Source: a virus. From it: DNA of 45,935 bases. A model generated the notes under the pieces. The model was not told where the DNA came from, searched no databases, and saw nothing but the letters and a program-made list of their open reading frames with translations. This document shows, one piece after another, positions 3,344 through 44,399 of this stretch. Location of the stretch: IMG/VR virus record IMGVR_UViG_3300050821_005846, positions 1 to 45,935 of that record; one strand, 5' to 3'. Positions within the stretch are counted from its first letter, which is position 1. Every line of letters begins with the position of its first letter. The position numbers were made by a program, and so were the translations under genes.

Positions 3344-3495
3344 TGGATGATTTAATTGAACATATAAAATATATCATTTTAAAAACAAAAGAACGTAGAC
3401 AATTGGGTTATGACGATCCGATTCGTAAAGCTTCAAGTCATGGTTATATTGAGGCATTGGAAGAAATATTGGAATTTATAGAGGACAATCAATAA
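3343..3495 (+). CDS. Small hypothetical protein (50 aa)
   Basis: A 50-residue frame begins on the portal stop (TAATG overlap) and ends in another TAATG overlap with the next gene, so it is stitched into the operon at both ends. The sequence starts [20 protein letters not shown] and looks like two charged alpha helices ending in LEEILEFIEDNQ. No family was recognised. It is part of a two-gene insertion between portal and Mu-F-like genes, next to a Tad2-like gene, and may be another early-acting accessory protein. Confidence 0.75.
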   Translation: MDDLIEHIKYIILKTKERRQLGYDDPIRKASSHGYIEALEEILEFIEDNQ

Positions 3496-3770
3496 TGGAT
3501 TTTAGTCATGCATTAATAAGTATAAAACATGGTCAATTATTGACACGTTCTGGTTGGAATGGAAAAGGAATGTTTATATTTTTGGTTAAAGGTTCTAACT
3601 TCAAAGTAAGCCGTGAACCATTATTGAATATATTTGAGGAAGGTACTGAAATTGTTTATCGTCCTCATATTGATATGAAATATGTTGATGGATCTATTGG
3701 TGTTTGGCTTGCTTCGATGGGCGACATTATGGCAGATGATTGGATGTTATATGAAAAGAAAGACATCTAA
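3495..3770 (+). CDS. DUF2829 protein, Tad2-like (Thoeris anti-defence)
   Basis: The 91-residue product is an end-to-end DUF2829 domain. Diagnostic parts are RSGWNGKGMFIFL (18-30), FKVSREPLL (36-44), RPHIDMK (56-62), WLAS (71-74) and ADDW (80-83). Known members named Tad2 bind the TIR-made signal of Thoeris (gcADPR type) and so silence that defence; some also bind cyclic nucleotides of CBASS. Many DUF2829 genes have not been tested, so anti-defence activity here is inferred from sequence family. It sits in the head operon by TAATG overlap and its last 20 bases overlap the Mu-F-like gene, which would make it a late gene unless read from elsewhere. Confidence 0.88.
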   Translation: MDFSHALISIKHGQLLTRSGWNGKGMFIFLVKGSNFKVSREPLLNIFEEGTEIVYRPHIDMKYVDGSIGVWLASMGDIMADDWMLYEKKDI

Positions 3771-4599
3771 ACGCATAGTTAAAAAACGTCAAGATGTTTT
3801 GCGCGGCCAACCGCTTAACGTTAACGCTTCAATACAGCAAAAATATTCAGCACAACTTACGGATCTTACGAAACTCATGATTGATGAAACAAAGCATGAA
3901 TTAATGGGTTTATTTCGTAGCTCAACAGCGCAGGAATATTTTGCAGAAGATGCTAGTATATCCAGTCAAGCACGAATATTGATGAATAAATTAACTGATA
4001 AATTCACAGAATTGTTTAACTACAAATCATCATCTCTTGCTAAGACAATGGTTGAACATTCCATGCGCTATAGTACTACTACTCTTAATCGTAGTTTGAA
4101 ACAGTTAAGCGGTGGATTGTCGTTAAAAACCAGCATCATTACGCCTGAGCTTGAAGATGTATCAAAATCAATCATTGCTGAGAATGTGTCGCTGATTAAA
4201 TCCATACCACAGGAATATTTCAAAGACATTACAGGCGCGGTAATGCGTAGTATATCCGCAGGTGGAATGTTTGATCTGAAGCCTGAGATATTGAAATATG
4301 ATGGCATGACAGCACGCAGGGCGCATTTGATCGCATTAGATCAAACACGAAAGGCATACACACTAATTAACAAAGTTAAAATGGAAAATATTGGTGTTAC
4401 GCAATTTGAATGGTTACACACAGGCGGAAGCCAATCACCTCGTGAATCGCATGTCAAAATATCTGGCATGATATTCAGCTTTGATAATTTGATTGCCGAA
4501 CAAATTGCTGCTGGCGTTCCTGAACGTGATTTGGGAATGCCTTCTATTCCACCATACTGTAGATGTAGAATGCTTCCAGTGATTGATTTTGAAAGATAA
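3751..4599 (+). CDS. Head morphogenesis protein, phage Mu gpF-like
   Basis: The C-terminal half carries the Mu F-like minor head domain: ARRAHLIALDQTRKAY, then FEWLHTGGSQSPRESHVKI and the closing GMPSIPPYCRCRMLPV with its characteristic CRCR. These proteins are minor capsid components needed for prohead assembly and are usually made beside the portal. The N-terminus is basic (KRKTSKRIVKKRQ), followed by helical sequence. The frame is open further upstream to 3682, but that part is a shadow of the DUF2829 gene. ATG 3751 is the natural start and gives 282 residues. Confidence 0.9.
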   Translation: MKRKTSKRIVKKRQDVLRGQPLNVNASIQQKYSAQLTDLTKLMIDETKHELMGLFRSSTAQEYFAEDASISSQARILMNKLTDKFTELFNYKSSSLAKTMVEHSMRYSTTTLNRSLKQLSGGLSLKTSIITPELEDVSKSIIAENVSLIKSIPQEYFKDITGAVMRSISAGGMFDLKPEILKYDGMTARRAHLIALDQTRKAYTLINKVKMENIGVTQFEWLHTGGSQSPRESHVKISGMIFSFDNLIAEQIAAGVPERDLGMPSIPPYCRCRMLPVIDFER

Positions 4600-4612
4600 T
4601 CATTAATATTAC

Positions 4613-4641
4613 TTGTTATATTAATGATTATGTTATATTAT
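4613..4641 (+). promoter_or_regulatory. Promoter of the large non-coding RNA
   Basis: TTGTTA (4613-4618), a 17-bp spacer and TATTAT (4636-4641) form a good sigma-70 promoter. Its -35 box lies in an 11-base motif, ACTTGTTATAT, that is shared with the promoters at 73-101 and 8624-8652. Predicted transcription starts at about 4648-4650, exactly where the first helix of the structured region begins. Confidence 0.65.
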
Positions 4642-4648
4642 TGTTTTT

Positions 4649-5151
4649 GTAAACCCTAAACGATTCGTGCCGTTATGTGCATGGTGGTTGAAAGTGTGTA
4701 TGCATGGGTTTGCACTTATTATGAGGATAGCGATGTTGACAGTGAAACATAAGTTATCGAAAAGTCTTGTAGGGGAAAACAGGAAGTGCGCACTGATAGT
4801 TTTCTAAAGCTTGGCAATTGCTCGCTGAGGTAGAAGCATAAAAACACTTGCAATACTTTTTATGTGGAACAGGAGATCGCGAGAAATTCTACAAGTACGT
4901 GCAATTCGTGCCTATCCTCAATCCTATTCCACACCTCGAGAAGGTGGGATCGTGCGTTATCAGCATGTTAATGTAATATTATGAATCGCGTAGCTCAGCT
5001 TGGCAGAGCAACTCTGAGGGGTGGGTCGCCAGTTCAAATCTGGCCAGTTGACAGAAATTACATAGATAACAACCACTATAACGTACGCATATGATTATAG
5101 AGGTGTGGTGAAAGTCCACCACCAACATTTGGGATTCACTGACTCCCAAAT
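4649..5151 (+). ncRNA. Large structured non-coding RNA (GOLLD/ROOL-like in kind, family unknown)
   Basis: No gene is present between 4600 and 5215 on either strand, although the rest of the genome is packed. The stretch is richer in G and in short palindromes than its flanks. Local helices include 4649-4656 with 4706-4713, 4733-4737 with 4746-4750, 4765-4770 with 4779-4784, 4837-4844 with 4857-4864 (8 bp), 4932-4936 with 4942-4946, 5105-5110 with 5117-5122, and 5127-5134 with 5144-5151 (8 bp). Possible long-range helices are 4722-4730 with 4912-4920 (9 bp) and 4863-4869 with 4927-4933. The last two would cross each other as a pseudoknot. Two nested helices (4956-4961 with 5065-5070 and 4971-4977 with 5057-5063) enclose a tRNA-like element. 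The 3' end is uncertain and there is no U-run after the last hairpin, so it may be processed from the operon transcript. Large ornate phage RNAs such as GOLLD and ROOL are the nearest known kind; membership is inference only. Confidence 0.6.
4984..5050 (+). other. tRNA-like element without a normal anticodon arm
   Basis: A near-perfect D-arm is present: TA, GCTC (4993-4996), loop AGCTTGGCA, GAGC (5006-5009), A. It is followed by a perfect T-arm: GCCAG (5028-5032), loop TTCAAAT, CTGGC (5040-5044). Only 17-18 bases separate the two arms, about five too few for an anticodon arm plus variable loop. The flanks cannot form a 7-bp acceptor stem. It is therefore either a decayed tRNA gene or a tRNA mimic held at the tip of a helix in the larger RNA. 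Confidence 0.6.
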
Positions 5152-5215
5152 TAAACTATTGATTACATCCTCACAATAAGTGCATAATTGAACCCATAAT
5201 TCAAGGGATACAATT

Positions 5216-6520
5216 ATGCCGCTCAAATCTGGTAAAAAAAACTTCGGTCGTAACGTAGCAGAACTTGAACGCGCAGGTCATAAACCAAGTCAGGCACTTG
5301 CGATCGCATATAAAACCGAAGGCAAAGATACGGAATCGGCGCGTGAAGAAGATATTAATGGCTTCACAGAAATTCAAGGTAATCCCATAAGCAAAGTCGG
5401 CGTATTTGAATACAGCGGACAACAAATTTCCCCCGATCTCGAACCCAACAGAATATATAAAGTATTTCGTTCAGAAGAAGCGCTAAATAACGAGGAAACA
5501 ATCAATTCGTTCAGATTATTACCATGGACTGATGATCACACTATGCTTTCAGGTAAGCCAGAAGATGGTTTAACCGATCCCGCCCGAAAAGGTGTGCATG
5601 GCATCATCGGCGAAAACGTATATTTCGAAGCGCCATACCTCAAAGCCAACGTTAAAATATTTTCTGCCCAATTAGCAAAACTCATAAATTCCGGCAAGCA
5701 AGAACTATCCATTGGATATCGCTGTGTTTACGAAGCGAAAAATGGCGAGTATGATGGTGAACAGTACGAATTTTTACAAAAAAACATAATGGGAAACCAT
5801 CTTGCGTTAGTTGACGAAGGCAGGTCTGGGCATGATGTTGCAGTCCTTGATCACTTTAAATTTACCCTTGACTCAAAGGATCTAAAAATGGCAGAGAAAA
5901 AAGGCGACATGGAAAAACCAGAAGATGCAAAGGATGAAGGCGAAATGTCCATGAAAGAAATGTGTTCCATGATGCGGCGTATGGCCGAGAAATTGGAAGG
6001 CATGGATATGGATGCCGCCAAAGATGAATTTGAAGATGATGTAGAAGCTGAAAAAATTAACGGCTCTGAAAATCTTGATGACGTTGATTTAGGCAAGTTT
6101 GTTGAACGTGCCAACGGAATCGATTCAGACGAAGACAAAGAAAAAGAGACCGAAGACGAAGAAGAAACAGAAAAAAAAGCTGAAGAAGAAGGTGATGCCA
6201 AAGACGAATACGAAGAAAAAAAGGAAGGCGCAATGGATGAGAAATTGATGACTAAACGAATCATGGCGCAAATATCAACTAGAGATGCGTTGGCCAAACG
6301 TTTATCGGTTCACATTGGGACTTTCGATCATTCACAAAAAACTGTTGAAGAAGTCGCCGTTTATGGCGTTAAAAAATTGGGTTTACGATGCTCCCCTAAA
6401 AATGCCGTTCACGTTTTGGATGGTTATCTGGCAGGTGCTCGTCCTTCTCGTGTAGCGATGGCAGAAGATTCTAAACGGCCATCAACTTCAATCGATGCAT
6501 ATCTTGCAGGGGAAAAATAA
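5216..6520 (+). CDS. DUF2213 prohead protease fused to an acidic scaffold-like region
   Basis: Residues 1-36 form a short basic lead (MPLKSGKKNFGRNVAELERA) common in phage DUF2213 proteins. Residues about 45-215 are the DUF2213 domain, including LPWTDDHTMLSGKP, GKQELSIGYRCVY and NHLALVDEGRSGHDVAVLD. Family members are thought to be HK97-type prohead proteases, with His and Ser catalytic residues expected in the LPWTDDH and ELSIGYR segments (family knowledge, not proven here). The next 150 residues are extremely acidic and Lys/Glu/Met-rich, as in scaffolding cores, and the C-terminus is again ordered. The protein therefore looks like protease and scaffold in one chain. The ribosome site AAGGGA precedes ATG 5216. 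Its stop overlaps the cement gene start. Confidence 0.85.
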   Translation: MPLKSGKKNFGRNVAELERAGHKPSQALAIAYKTEGKDTESAREEDINGFTEIQGNPISKVGVFEYSGQQISPDLEPNRIYKVFRSEEALNNEETINSFRLLPWTDDHTMLSGKPEDGLTDPARKGVHGIIGENVYFEAPYLKANVKIFSAQLAKLINSGKQELSIGYRCVYEAKNGEYDGEQYEFLQKNIMGNHLALVDEGRSGHDVAVLDHFKFTLDSKDLKMAEKKGDMEKPEDAKDEGEMSMKEMCSMMRRMAEKLEGMDMDAAKDEFEDDVEAEKINGSENLDDVDLGKFVERANGIDSDEDKEKETEDEEETEKKAEEEGDAKDEYEEKKEGAMDEKLMTKRIMAQISTRDALAKRLSVHIGTFDHSQKTVEEVAVYGVKKLGLRCSPKNAVHVLDGYLAGARPSRVAMAEDSKRPSTSIDAYLAGEK

Positions 6521-9638: not shown

Positions 9639-10153
9639 TGAAAATCATACGCACTAAAACGACCGTGGGTAAAAACTTGACAGTGGCATTGAAACAGCTT
9701 GATGGTCTTGAAGGTCGGGTAGGTTGGTTCAAAGATGCTAGATATGAAGAATATAAAGAGAACGGAGAAAAAAAAGGTGGAGAATACGTTGCTTTTATTG
9801 CTGCTCAAAATGAATATGGCAATCCGAACAAAAATATACCTGCAAGACCATTCATGCGTCCAACAATTCGTGAACAGAAAAATAAATGGTTGGCATTTGC
9901 GGCCAAACTGTCAGGTCAAGTATTAGAGGGAAAACTATATGCGCATCAAGCCATGGAATCAATTGCTGTAATGGCTGAAAATGATGTTTTGAAAAAGATA
10001 GCTTCAATTTACACTCCTCCACTTGCACCAATTACAATTGAAAAACGGATCGCAAGATATTCAAATCAAAATAAATTGGGGAATTTATACAAGCCTTTGG
10101 TTGATACAGGCCACATGATCGCAACATTAACGCATGAAGTGGTGTCAGCATGA
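9635..10153 (+). CDS. Neck/tail-completion protein, HK97 gp10-like family
   Basis: This protein of about 170 residues has the hallmark [17 protein letters not shown] and a C-terminal [16 protein letters not shown]. Both are typical of the HK97 gp10-like / virion morphogenesis family that closes the neck or starts tail joining. ATG 9635, overlapping the upstream TGA, is the best start. The open frame extends to TTG 9626, but the ATGA overlap is the usual coupling here. The downstream gene is a homing endonuclease that seems to have inserted between this and the next neck gene. Confidence 0.85.
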
Positions 10154-10803
10154 ATTATATAAAAATATATGATTCAATCATTGAAAAATATAGAAATGAA
10201 TTGGCTGTTGGTTATTGTGAAGTGCATCATATCATTCCAAAATGTATGGGAGGATCCAATGAGAAAGATAATCTGGTTGCATTACCATATCGTTATCATT
10301 TTGTAGCGCATTTATGTTTGGCTAAAATTTATGGCGGAAAATTATTGGGTGGCGCATGGATTATGTCTAATTGCGGAGAGAATAATTCAAGAAAATATGC
10401 ATGGCTTAGAAAAAAAGTAGCAGAATATTCTAGACAATTAAATACAGGAAGAAAACAAACACCAGAAGCCAAGAAAAAACAAATAGAAAACCAAACTGGT
10501 AAAAAAAATGGATTTTATGGAAAAAAACATACTCAAGAAACTAAAGACAAAATTATTGCTAGTCATAAAGGTATGAAAAGAAAAAAACATACTGAAGAAA
10601 CAAAGAAAAAAATGTCTCAAAGTGGCAAAGGCCGTATTTTTACAGAAGAACATAAATTAAAGATATCTCTTTCAAGAAAAGCCAAAAAAATGGGATCTCC
10701 TATGGAAGGGAAAAAACATACAGCGGAATCGATTGCTAAAATGTCTAAAGGTCATATGGGTAATATTCCTTGGAATAAAGGCATGAAAAAAGGAGTTATT
10801 TAA
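10150..10803 (+). CDS. HNH homing endonuclease with NUMOD3 repeats
   Basis: The first 60 residues form an HNH/HHH nuclease: EVHHIIPKCMGGSNEKDNL (24-42), with two His at the core and a later RYHFVAHLCLAKIY. The remainder is very Lys-rich and made of repeated NUMOD3-type DNA-binding units: GFYGKKHTQETKDKI, KKHTEETKKKM, FTEEHKLKIS, KKHTAESIAKM. Such proteins cut intron-less or homologous target sites and spread their own gene. Codon use is more A-rich than the neighbours. The gene is placed with ATGA and TAATG overlaps on both sides, so it has been fitted neatly into the neck gene cluster without breaking a gene. Confidence 0.92.
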   Translation: MNYIKIYDSIIEKYRNELAVGYCEVHHIIPKCMGGSNEKDNLVALPYRYHFVAHLCLAKIYGGKLLGGAWIMSNCGENNSRKYAWLRKKVAEYSRQLNTGRKQTPEAKKKQIENQTGKKNGFYGKKHTQETKDKIIASHKGMKRKKHTEETKKKMSQSGKGRIFTEEHKLKISLSRKAKKMGSPMEGKKHTAESIAKMSKGHMGNIPWNKGMKKGVI

Positions 10804-33851: not shown

Positions 33852-33857
33852 AACCCC

Positions 33858-33930
33858 TCCATCAAGGCATCAAATAGGATCCAAGTCAACGCTTGATGAG
33901 AGCGTGTTCAGCCGCCGCCTAGACTTGGAT
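33858..33930 (-). promoter_or_regulatory. Structured leader of the endonuclease VII-like gene
   Basis: A 9-bp perfect inverted repeat, ATCCAAGTC / GACTTGGAT (33879-33887 with 33922-33930), encloses a small hairpin (33889-33893 with 33901-33905). The loop bases 33892-33898 can instead pair with 33860-33866, right beside the ribosome site. The two folds exclude each other, so the leader could switch translation. Not tested. Confidence 0.45.
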
Positions 33931-33934
33931 AAAC

Positions 33935-33943
33935 ATTATATCA
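33935..33943 (-). promoter_or_regulatory. Extended -10 promoter of the endonuclease VII / helicase genes
   Basis: The minus strand reads TGATATAAT, a perfect -10 with the extended TG element, and no good -35. Transcription would start near 33928, at the foot of the leader hairpin, giving a leader of about 77 bases. Confidence 0.5.
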
Positions 33944-34159
33944 TCAATCAATCGGATAATCCGGCAATTCTTGCCAATGGGTTATATCAACCAAATCATT
34001 TAAAGTATCTGAACCATAAAAAAGATGGGTAGCAACCCATTCACTACCAACTCTATATCCAATCATATGAGATCTAGGAAATGGATTTTCTGCATCTTTT
34101 GCCATAAATAATACTTTTTGATATTTTTCAGGCTGTCTTTCTGAGCATTTAATCCACAT
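33944..34159 (-). CDS. DUF551 protein
   Basis: A complete 71-residue DUF551 domain: WIKCSERQPEKYQKVLFMAK at the start, GYRVGSEWVATHLFYG, and ITHWQELPDYP at the end. DUF551 proteins are common in phages and their function is unknown. It overlaps the upstream gene by 11 bases in the early minus-strand operon. Confidence 0.85.
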   Translation of the reverse strand: MWIKCSERQPEKYQKVLFMAKDAENPFPRSHMIGYRVGSEWVATHLFYGSDTLNDLVDITHWQELPDYPID

Positions 34160-34603: not shown

Positions 34604-35197
34604 TTAGAACGGTATCCCGCTGTCATCGTCTGGAAGTCCTGATAATCCAGAATTACGATTCAATGCGCTATCATGCGATGAACTGGGTGCATGTGATGTA
34701 ACAACAACCATTTGTCCGGTTTCTGTAGGAACCGATCCAGATTTGTAAACCTCCGATACGCGATTACCTTCCAACAATTTACCGTCTTTAGCGACGGTGT
34801 CCCATTGAACGATTTTAACTGACGCCATTTTTCCTATCATGGGCATAAGATCGCTATCAGTTGGAGCGTCATTATGTGCTGGTTTGAAAGAGGATAAATC
34901 CATGATCAATTTCATCATATTTAAATTACGATCAATCGTTTCAGTTTTTTGATCGAAAACTTTAAGTTTTAATCCGACTTCACGATTCTTAAAATCACCA
35001 TCAACCATTTTGAAAGTAACTTCATAATATTTTTCTTCCATTTGGGTATAAGCGTTTAATTTGTTAACCAAACAAAATTTAATAATTTTAGAATTTGCAA
35101 TTGTTCCATCTGGAATAATAGTAAAATCCTTCAAAAATGCATGTTCAGCATTACCAGTAATAACTTTTCCGCTTCCAGAATTCCAGAACTGTTCCAT
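34604..35197 (-). CDS. SSB-like / DUF669-type single-strand DNA-binding protein
   Basis: The 197-residue protein is an early recombination-module protein. It has a beta-rich N-terminal domain (KYYEVTFKMVDGDFKNREVG, LKLKVF), a disordered Ser/Pro-rich linker and a C-terminal DDDSGIPF. That tip mimics the DDDIPF tail by which bacterial SSBs dock replication and repair enzymes. Together with the P-loop ATPase upstream it looks like an SSB plus Sak4-type annealing system. DUF669 membership is a guess from length and context. Confidence 0.75.
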   Translation of the reverse strand: MEQFWNSGSGKVITGNAEHAFLKDFTIIPDGTIANSKIIKFCLVNKLNAYTQMEEKYYEVTFKMVDGDFKNREVGLKLKVFDQKTETIDRNLNMMKLIMDLSSFKPAHNDAPTDSDLMPMIGKMASVKIVQWDTVAKDGKLLEGNRVSEVYKSGSVPTETGQMVVVTSHAPSSSHDSALNRNSGLSGLPDDDSGIPF

Positions 35198-41747: not shown

Positions 41748-41993
41748 TTATTCCCTAGTGCCGACATATTTATCACCAAAATGTTCTTGTAGTGATGATC
41801 GCAACGTTCCTCTGCTGATTCCTAACACACGCGCGGTTTTGGATTGATTGTATTTACACATCTTCATAGTGGCCTCAAAGGTGATGCGATCTAACTCTTG
41901 CCGCAAAGTATTATAGACATTTTCTTCTTTTAGAATTAAAGCTTCTTTAACCATTGACTCAATGATTTCTGATAAATTTTGTTCTCTACTCAT
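41748..41993 (-). CDS. Fis-family DNA-binding protein
   Basis: The C-terminal part is a Fis-type helix-turn-helix: [20 protein letters not shown] followed by [17 protein letters not shown], which parallels the 'NQT.AA..MGI.RGTLRKKL' core of bacterial Fis. Residues 1-35 form the helical dimer part. ATG 41993 is chosen because GGAGAG lies 7 bases upstream, giving 81 residues; the open frame reaches 42038 without a ribosome site. Fis proteins bend DNA and control growth-phase genes. It overlaps the CsrA stop by 8 bases. Confidence 0.88.
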
Positions 41994-42372
41994 CTTTGTA
42001 CTCTCCGTTTGATATTGTTTCCAATAGTCTTGTAACATTAATAAACATATTTAATCTTTCGCGTTGGTTCATAGTCATCGCGCCGTTATGGTTTATATCA
42101 TCACTTAAATAATGAAGAGAACCATCTTTAATGCTGAATGTATATCTATTATTCAGCATATCATATATCTGCATTTTTTTTCTCCATGAATTAGCATCAT
42201 TTAATGATGATTTAAGATCTATTCGTTGTTGAATTTCTTCACGATGTATAGGGATATCTGGAGGAGCATCAGCACCTATTAATACTTGACGACCTTTAAC
42301 ACCTAAGATTTTAAGATATATATTCCCATTTATTACAATACGCTCGCCTATTCTTCTCGTTAAAATTAACAC
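41986..42372 (-). CDS. csrA: CsrA-like RNA-binding regulator with a long C-terminal extension
   Basis: Residues 1-55 align without gaps to Csr[11 protein letters not shown] (RNA-contacting Leu4, Thr5, Arg6, Arg7 kept), [20 protein letters not shown], and HREEI with Arg44. All residues needed for GGA-motif binding are present. CsrA is normally 60-65 residues. Here about 72 more follow ([40 protein letters not shown]), of no recognised kind. The GTG start has ACAAGGAG 6 bases upstream, itself a CsrA-type binding core, so it may repress itself. It should bind mRNA leaders of phage or host and change their translation. Confidence 0.95.
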
Positions 42373-43314: not shown

Positions 43315-44399
43315 CGGTAACATTCTCCACATTTGATGCATTTATATTGAGATGGACAGCTAAGAAAACAGGCGTCTAAATCAGGCTCATGGTCACATTT
43401 ACCCTGAAAATAATCAGGATCGTCTTTGACTTTTTGGGTGATATCCACACCATCCGCGATAATTTTTACGTCCCAAATTGTTTCATCGTTACATTTAATA
43501 CATTTCGAAATAAAATACATTCCAGATTGAGATAATGTTTTTTTGTAATCGTGCTGGCATCCGGTTGTTCCGTTAACTAAGGTTATTTTTCCTGACCCTT
43601 TAGGCTCAATAGCACCCGGAAAGGGTAGCATGTCATCAGATTCAAATCCTTTTATGTCGCCTTCGAATAGTGGTTGGTATTCTTCACGCTTGCCTAGTTT
43701 TGCGCCGGAGACGTTCCAGTATTCATCAGTTACTTTCGTATATTTTATTTTTTCAGTCCATTCATGATCGCAGTAGAAATAATCAGAATAGTGGGTATCC
43801 AAAATATCTAATCCACATTTTTTGCATGGATTTTTATTAGATATTGGCTCAAGCATACTTGACCAATATGCAATCTGTGCTTCGATTAGCGCGGCTTTGG
43901 TGGGGTAAAGTTTGGACTCACAAATAATTAAACCTTTAATTGAATAACATTGTTCTCCGTTAATATCACAACCTAACTGCTCGCAAATAACATCCTCAAA
44001 CGGTTGATGATTAACTATTCGCCAAATATGAGCGCCTTCTTTGTATTGCGGCTCTGGCTCGGTTAATTCCTCTGGCTTATCTATCTTTTTTACAGCATAC
44101 CAACGCCCGTTAATTACCCTATACTCACCGGCGCATACAGATACACTGCAGTTAGATGTAAATATTTCTTCCAGTATTTCGCCGAAATAACCCGGTTCTA
44201 TTGATTCTGGCTGGGTTAATTCGCGAAGCTTTGTGATTAGATCGTCGATACTGTATGCCACATAAATACATAGATGATTATCATGATTAAAGAGTTCGAA
44301 TTTAACTTTATCACTCCAGCCAAATTCATACATACAATAGAATTTGTTGTGTTCTAACATGATATTATGTGCAATTTTAAGCTTTTCGCAGTCAATCAT
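43311..44399 (-). CDS. Large accessory protein with zinc ribbons (362 aa)
   Basis: The largest protein of the accessory block. It has scattered CxxC pairs (PCKKCGLDILD, SKCIKCNDE, YKCIKCGECYR) and a Cys-rich end that repeat roughly every 80-120 residues. The middle carries YDIDDL-like alpha/beta segments (CIYVAYSIDDLITKLRELTQ) and EYQPLFEGDIKGFESDDM. It looks like a composite of small domains of the kind found one by one in other phage accessory genes. No enzymatic motif seen and no family recognised. Confidence 0.7.
   Translation of the reverse strand: MIDCEKLKIAHNIMLEHNKFYCMYEFGWSDKVKFELFNHDNHLCIYVAYSIDDLITKLRELTQPESIEPGYFGEILEEIFTSNCSVSVCAGEYRVINGRWYAVKKIDKPEELTEPEPQYKEGAHIWRIVNHQPFEDVICEQLGCDINGEQCYSIKGLIICESKLYPTKAALIEAQIAYWSSMLEPISNKNPCKKCGLDILDTHYSDYFYCDHEWTEKIKYTKVTDEYWNVSGAKLGKREEYQPLFEGDIKGFESDDMLPFPGAIEPKGSGKITLVNGTTGCQHDYKKTLSQSGMYFISKCIKCNDETIWDVKIIADGVDITQKVKDDPDYFQGKCDHEPDLDACFLSCPSQYKCIKCGECYR

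Follow-up and report, generated by a model that had tools for sequence, protein, structure and literature searches.

A structured RNA with a predicted pseudoknot in a phage head operon, with a homologue at an unrelated site in a second phage

Judged from sequence comparison, the gap between two head genes of the phage analysed here holds a real structured RNA whose core is predicted to be pseudoknotted. The DNA is a virus record of 45,935 bp, referred to below as the window (the whole stretch analysed); the gap spans 4600-5215 and the conserved core 4928-5124 (positions are those of the window, on the plus strand unless stated otherwise). The case for a structured RNA rests on a homologue of about 162 nt, located at 4195-4356 of a second phage contig, L068 (IMGVR_UViG_3300037156_000035). 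The reading of this element that we favour, with a probability of roughly 45%, is that of an accessory RNA gene that moves horizontally (an 'RNA moron'), has a cargo arm and presumably acts in trans.

The portal, MuF, DUF2213, cement and major capsid genes of the window are tightly ordered, and the gap lies between a MuF-like head morphogenesis gene (3772-4599, start tentative) and the DUF2213 gene (5216-6520). The original prediction that these 616 bases carry no gene was borne out, since the open reading frames inside the gap, on either strand, have 56 amino acids or fewer, the six longest ones tested gave no PHROGs match, and the flanks are packed. MuF and DUF2213 are adjacent in relatives, separated by 8 nt in L003 and overlapping by 4 nt in L010, and the 616 nt are therefore an insertion in the window lineage. 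A further accessory insertion, a Tad2-like (Thoeris anti-defence) gene at 3495-3770, precedes MuF in the same operon; in L003 the large open reading frame preceding MuF overlaps the Tad2-like gene. A free-standing HNH/NUMOD3 homing endonuclease is also encoded within the structural operon (10150-10803, plus strand). Like phage moron genes, of which the Tad2-like gene is an example, the gap is an accessory insertion in an otherwise gapless structural operon and is absent from relatives, but unlike them it carries RNA and not protein.

Taken alone, the window sequence would leave the claim of a structured RNA open. The promoter proposed for it, with a start near 4649, found no support: the sigma-70-like site TTGTTA-17-TATTAT has 9 of 12 consensus matches, equally good sites occur seven times in 1 kb against 3.1 ± 1.4 expected, a count near chance, and the -35 box overlaps an AT-rich palindrome (4600-4627, assigned to neither strand) directly 3' of the MuF stop codon. 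The minimum folding energy of 4600-5215 gave z-scores of -2.95 and -2.67 against shuffles in two computations, while several control windows of the same genome, mostly coding, fell between -2.4 and -2.7 and the lowest reached -3.84. Since other windows equal or beat the region, folding energy is no evidence here, and it was dropped as support after this genome-wide control. The region also contains an inverted repeat of 18 nt, 94% complementary, whose strands (4711-4728 and 5167-5184, possibly extended by 4704-4710 and 5191-5197) would form a long closing helix around most of 4600-5215; no homologue covers either strand. The longest such helix in 60 shuffles averaged 12.3 nt with a maximum of 19, and the observed one is unusual but not decisive. 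Two further features belong to the window copy only, namely an upstream domain (4729-4927), whose fold is predicted without covariation support and which has no counterpart in L068, and a hairpin after the core (5127-5151), which has no U-run and is absent in L068.

The homologue came from a scan of viral contigs with the sequence of the H5 hairpin of the core, which returned seven contigs, one of them (L068) also matching around the hairpin. Aligned by blastn, the region and L068 share two blocks, one of 47 nt at 96% identity (E = 1.5e-16) and one of 63 nt at 87% (E = 4e-17). The arms that separate these blocks in the two copies bear no relation to each other. Outside this arm the RNA is about 92% identical, whereas the proteins common to both phages are weakly similar (about 25-44% amino-acid identity), meaning that the RNA core is much better conserved than they are. 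The structural proteins of L068 look P22-like, a judgement made from gene order and sequence and not from a family search. Separately, short stretches of 84-88% DNA identity link the two phages (window 43671-44253 and L101 7171-7491) within genes that have otherwise diverged, which is a sign of recent exchange.

Local hairpins exist, as first predicted, and folding each core separately and without constraints gave the same H1, H2, H4 and H5. H1 (4928-4949, UCC.CACCU-CGAGA-AGGUGGGA) and H5 (5105-5122, GUGGUG-AAAGUC-CACCAC) are identical in both copies. H2 (4951-4967, CGUGC-[GUUAUCA]-GCAUG) has two pairs that change on one side with pairing kept. In H4 (5072-5104) three pairs change on both sides and compensate, and one pair is broken (U-A to C.A). 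Between H2 and H4 stands the variable arm H3 (4971-5063), with the base AUGUAAU/AUUACAU in the window and AUCGA/UCGAU in L068 and an interior unrelated between the copies. Pseudoknotted long-range pairings had originally been suggested as possible, and one specific pseudoknot is retained in L068: the GUUAUC of the H2 loop (4956-4961) can form all six pairs with the GAUAAC that follows the arm (5065-5070) in both copies, and since these pairs are invariant they are no more than consistent with a pseudoknot.

The original prediction had proposed looking for compensatory changes in a homologue, and L068 supplies them. All 43 pairs form in the window and 42 of 43 in L068, and when the two are compared, five pairs have changed on both sides and compensate (two of them at the base of H3 and three in H4), two have changed on one side with the pair kept (H2) and one is broken (H4); H3 was aligned manually, guided by its pairing, and this part of the comparison deserves less weight. 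Of the eight substitutions in the 3' block, six make up three compensating pairs, one falls in a loop and one breaks a pair; at least three compensating pairs would arise from random placement of eight such substitutions with P = 7e-5. Shuffling columns gave 20 of 500, a procedure with little power for two sequences, and no double change survived when the partners were shifted by one to three columns. Compensatory pairing between homologues, the mark of a structured noncoding RNA, was thus found in two sequences, and the covariation amounts to one comparison between the only two known members. No competing conserved reading frame was found: a frame of ten codons (GTG CGT TAT CAG ... TGA) runs uninterrupted through both copies, yet the substitutions track pairing and not codons, and it was set aside. 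A structured RNA is therefore present as predicted, whereas of the roughly 500 nt envisaged homology supports only 4928-5124, about 200 nt.

The two copies occupy different surroundings. The L068 core follows directly on the stop codon of a gene homologous to window 34604-35197, which we take to be DUF669-like, and precedes a Cas4-like exonuclease gene, ending about 18 nt before the next start codon, while the window core lies 328 nt past its upstream gene and 91 nt before its downstream gene. The flanking genes are unrelated between the phages. Among 14 relatives of the L068 exonuclease, the two genes lie at most a few dozen nt apart in 12 and the upstream side differs in 2, and none of the 14 contains the core. 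Since the occupied sites differ and the relatives are empty at both, the two copies sit at unrelated sites, which is the pattern of a mobile or horizontally acquired element: the same element at non-homologous sites that are unoccupied in relatives. The close fit of the L068 core between a stop and a start codon would suit a cis-acting operon element (an attenuator, a frameshift stimulator or a translational control), but the looser spacing in the window, the unrelated neighbours and the relatives that manage without the core make a cis role very unlikely.

The main rival to a mobile RNA gene is a mobile DNA element of miniature size, similar to IS200/IS605 and ending in single-stranded hairpins, whose folds would act as single-stranded DNA with the transposase supplied in trans and the RNA incidental. 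It would explain a short element without an open reading frame, with ends (TCCACACC...CCACCACCA) common to both copies at two unrelated sites and a hairpin at either end, and the TTAAT on both flanks of the L068 core (4190-4194 and 4357-4361) could be its target-site duplication. Yet no such repeat flanks the window copy, only one core copy was found per genome, and the tRNA-like cargo described below is an RNA feature. Moreover, the folds span the whole element, and the two copies have the pseudoknot and a G-U pair in common, as would be more natural for RNA. We regard the DNA element as unlikely on this evidence. Spread by homing of a self-processing or guide-type RNA (a ribozyme, an intron remnant or the omega-RNA used by an RNA-guided nuclease) would likewise fit the mobile-looking distribution, the conservation, which is strong in paired as well as unpaired parts, and the free-standing HNH-type endonucleases present in both phages. 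However, neither copy matched a group I or group II intron, HEARO (IscB omega-RNA) or a known ribozyme in Rfam at E up to 10, neither an RNA-guided nuclease nor a reverse transcriptase was recognised next to either copy, and splicing would restore nothing because the sites are intergenic; this origin is quite unlikely.

The family has two members so far. A covariance model scored the two copies at 154-163 bits and gave no other noteworthy match in 62 sources, and model R1 found no third member in relatives of both phages, 369 Gammaproteobacteria genomes, 398 Pseudomonadota genomes (two partly overlapping samples) and two small orders; a weak R1 match inside a GGDEF-type gene was judged to be chance. 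No real homologue was obtained by blastn with the window region against phages or with the L068 core against phages and plasmids, and an exact search for TTCAAATCTGGCCAGTTGA had no match. Pattern scans for H2 and H4 returned L068 and otherwise matches without the rest of the core; since such scans require near-exact sequence, divergent members can escape them. Within the window, a stretch at about 4660-4752 (plus strand) was considered as a diverged second copy of the core; it is no more than a lead, as the model scored it at 2.2 bits (E 0.49) and its local alignment was not above shuffles. The sequence CGTGCCGTTATGTGCATG from that stretch looks similar to H2, and a downstream ACATAA is a potential pairing partner for its loop.

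Regarding known RNA families, Rfam covariance models run on both copies, at the gathering score and at E up to 10, returned only the tRNA-like piece and chance matches, and neither Rfam nor ARAGORN found a tmRNA in the window. The original prediction had likened the RNA to GOLLD (which we take to be Rfam RF02032) and ROOL. Since the Rfam test (GOLLD, ROOL, OLE) failed at every threshold tried, the element does not belong to these families by that test. A giant ornate RNA of the same sort, some 474 nt long, with the 18-nt helix closing it, and homo-oligomeric, would still account for the phage location, the large predicted fold, the closing helix and a variable segment with a tRNA-like piece, which recalls the variable linker of GOLLD that can hold a tRNA (PMC12286853). 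Against it stand the missing Rfam match, the absence of the outer part from the L068 homologue, and the lack of a nearby tRNA gene, none having been found in the window or in the scanned parts of the L068 record, so that the typical location of GOLLD, ROOL and OLE RNAs (in phages, often near tRNA islands) is shared only as to the phage. We assign this explanation a low probability. GOLLD is similarly a phage-borne structured RNA whose variable region may contain a tRNA (PMC12286853), but its size is about 800 nt against a core of about 160-200 nt here, its covariance model does not match, and the tRNA in the arm described here is degenerate, lacks an acceptor stem and has no tRNA gene nearby; the resemblance is only an analogy. 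ROOL RNAs are also phage-borne, pseudoknotted and of unknown function, but differ from the present RNA by the covariance model, by the far smaller conserved core here and by the absence of a tRNA island. Since no Rfam family fits, the RNA forms a new family of a known general kind, the phage-borne structured RNAs, and its distribution is unusual for that kind.

The tRNA-like segment of the window lies in the H3 arm (4990-5045) and consists of a D-arm (4993-5009) and a T-arm (5028-5044) around a degenerate, short anticodon region, without an acceptor stem. It matches the tRNA model (RF00005) in D-arm and T-arm sequence at 23.8 bits, below the gathering score of 29; the distance between the two arms is about 5 nt less than in tRNA, and the acceptor positions are unpaired by inspection. 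ARAGORN found no tRNA gene in the window by default and, when relaxed, only a single unassignable tRNA-???, and the segment is not a tRNA gene. A fold with both arms has a predicted energy of -22.2 kcal/mol against -25.3 for the best alternative, computed without tertiary contacts or modification, and since the alternative is better by 3.1 kcal/mol the tRNA elbow is only putative. Similar stretches inspected in other phages are ordinary tRNA genes. A short-spaced tRNA elbow used as a search pattern was likewise abandoned, since its 51 contigs held what appear to be short or truncated ordinary tRNA genes and none fits the model. The L068 arm has a different sequence, with no tRNA likeness noted.

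The window also encodes a CsrA homologue with an overlapping Fis-family helix-turn-helix protein (41748-42372, minus strand), unusual host-type global regulators for a phage. A sponge RNA for this CsrA, comparable to CsrB or RsmZ, would give the element a partner encoded in the same genome, but GGA occurs at background (8 found, 8.2 expected), there is a single ANGGA, and none lies in the loops of the conserved hairpins. The many loop GGA motifs of CsrB, CsrC and RsmZ are thus missing, and we rejected membership of that group; a sponge function is extremely unlikely. Elsewhere, at 33852-33945 (minus strand) and upstream of a gene for an endonuclease VII-fold protein, a TATAAT-like box accompanies a 9-bp hairpin (ATCCAAGTC...GACTTGGAT), possibly another small structured RNA.

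Returning to the mobile accessory RNA gene, we propose that it is transcribed by read-through, from the late operon of head genes here and from the replication operon in L068, and that the RNA works in trans, its conserved pseudoknotted core being a scaffold that gives stability or is recognised by a host protein. In this phage an RNA of 474 nt, bounded by the long outer helix, may be excised from the operon message; the stalks of rRNA precursors serve RNase III excision in the same way. The H3 arm would present a cargo that differs from phage to phage, here a tRNA elbow made of a D-arm and a T-arm without an acceptor, and the combination of conserved chassis and exchangeable arm suits an RNA presenting different ligands. 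Such an elbow could decoy a host factor that reads tRNA, for example a tRNA-targeting defence nuclease or a T-arm enzyme, as the anatomy of the arm suggests; since L068 lacks this cargo, a decoy for tRNA readers cannot be the general role. The other accessory genes in the window operon (the Tad2-like gene and the homing endonuclease) support the account of an accessory RNA. In its most specific form, the proposal is a new family of mobile, miniature RNA genes travelling from phage to unrelated phage. Their pseudoknotted chassis would stay constant while the cargo arm is exchanged, and the tRNA elbow without an acceptor would be one such cargo, serving as a decoy for a host defence that reads tRNA; this version is speculative, and we would not expect it to hold in full.

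Phage genomes are read almost solely for proteins. If the account given here is true, phages would possess a new type of accessory gene, a compact, moron-like RNA whose chassis stays the same while site and cargo vary, and its core offers a defined 200-nt target for tests of structure, binding and anti-defence activity. Should the tRNA elbow be a decoy, the blunting of tRNA-directed defences by phages through RNA, and not protein, would become testable.
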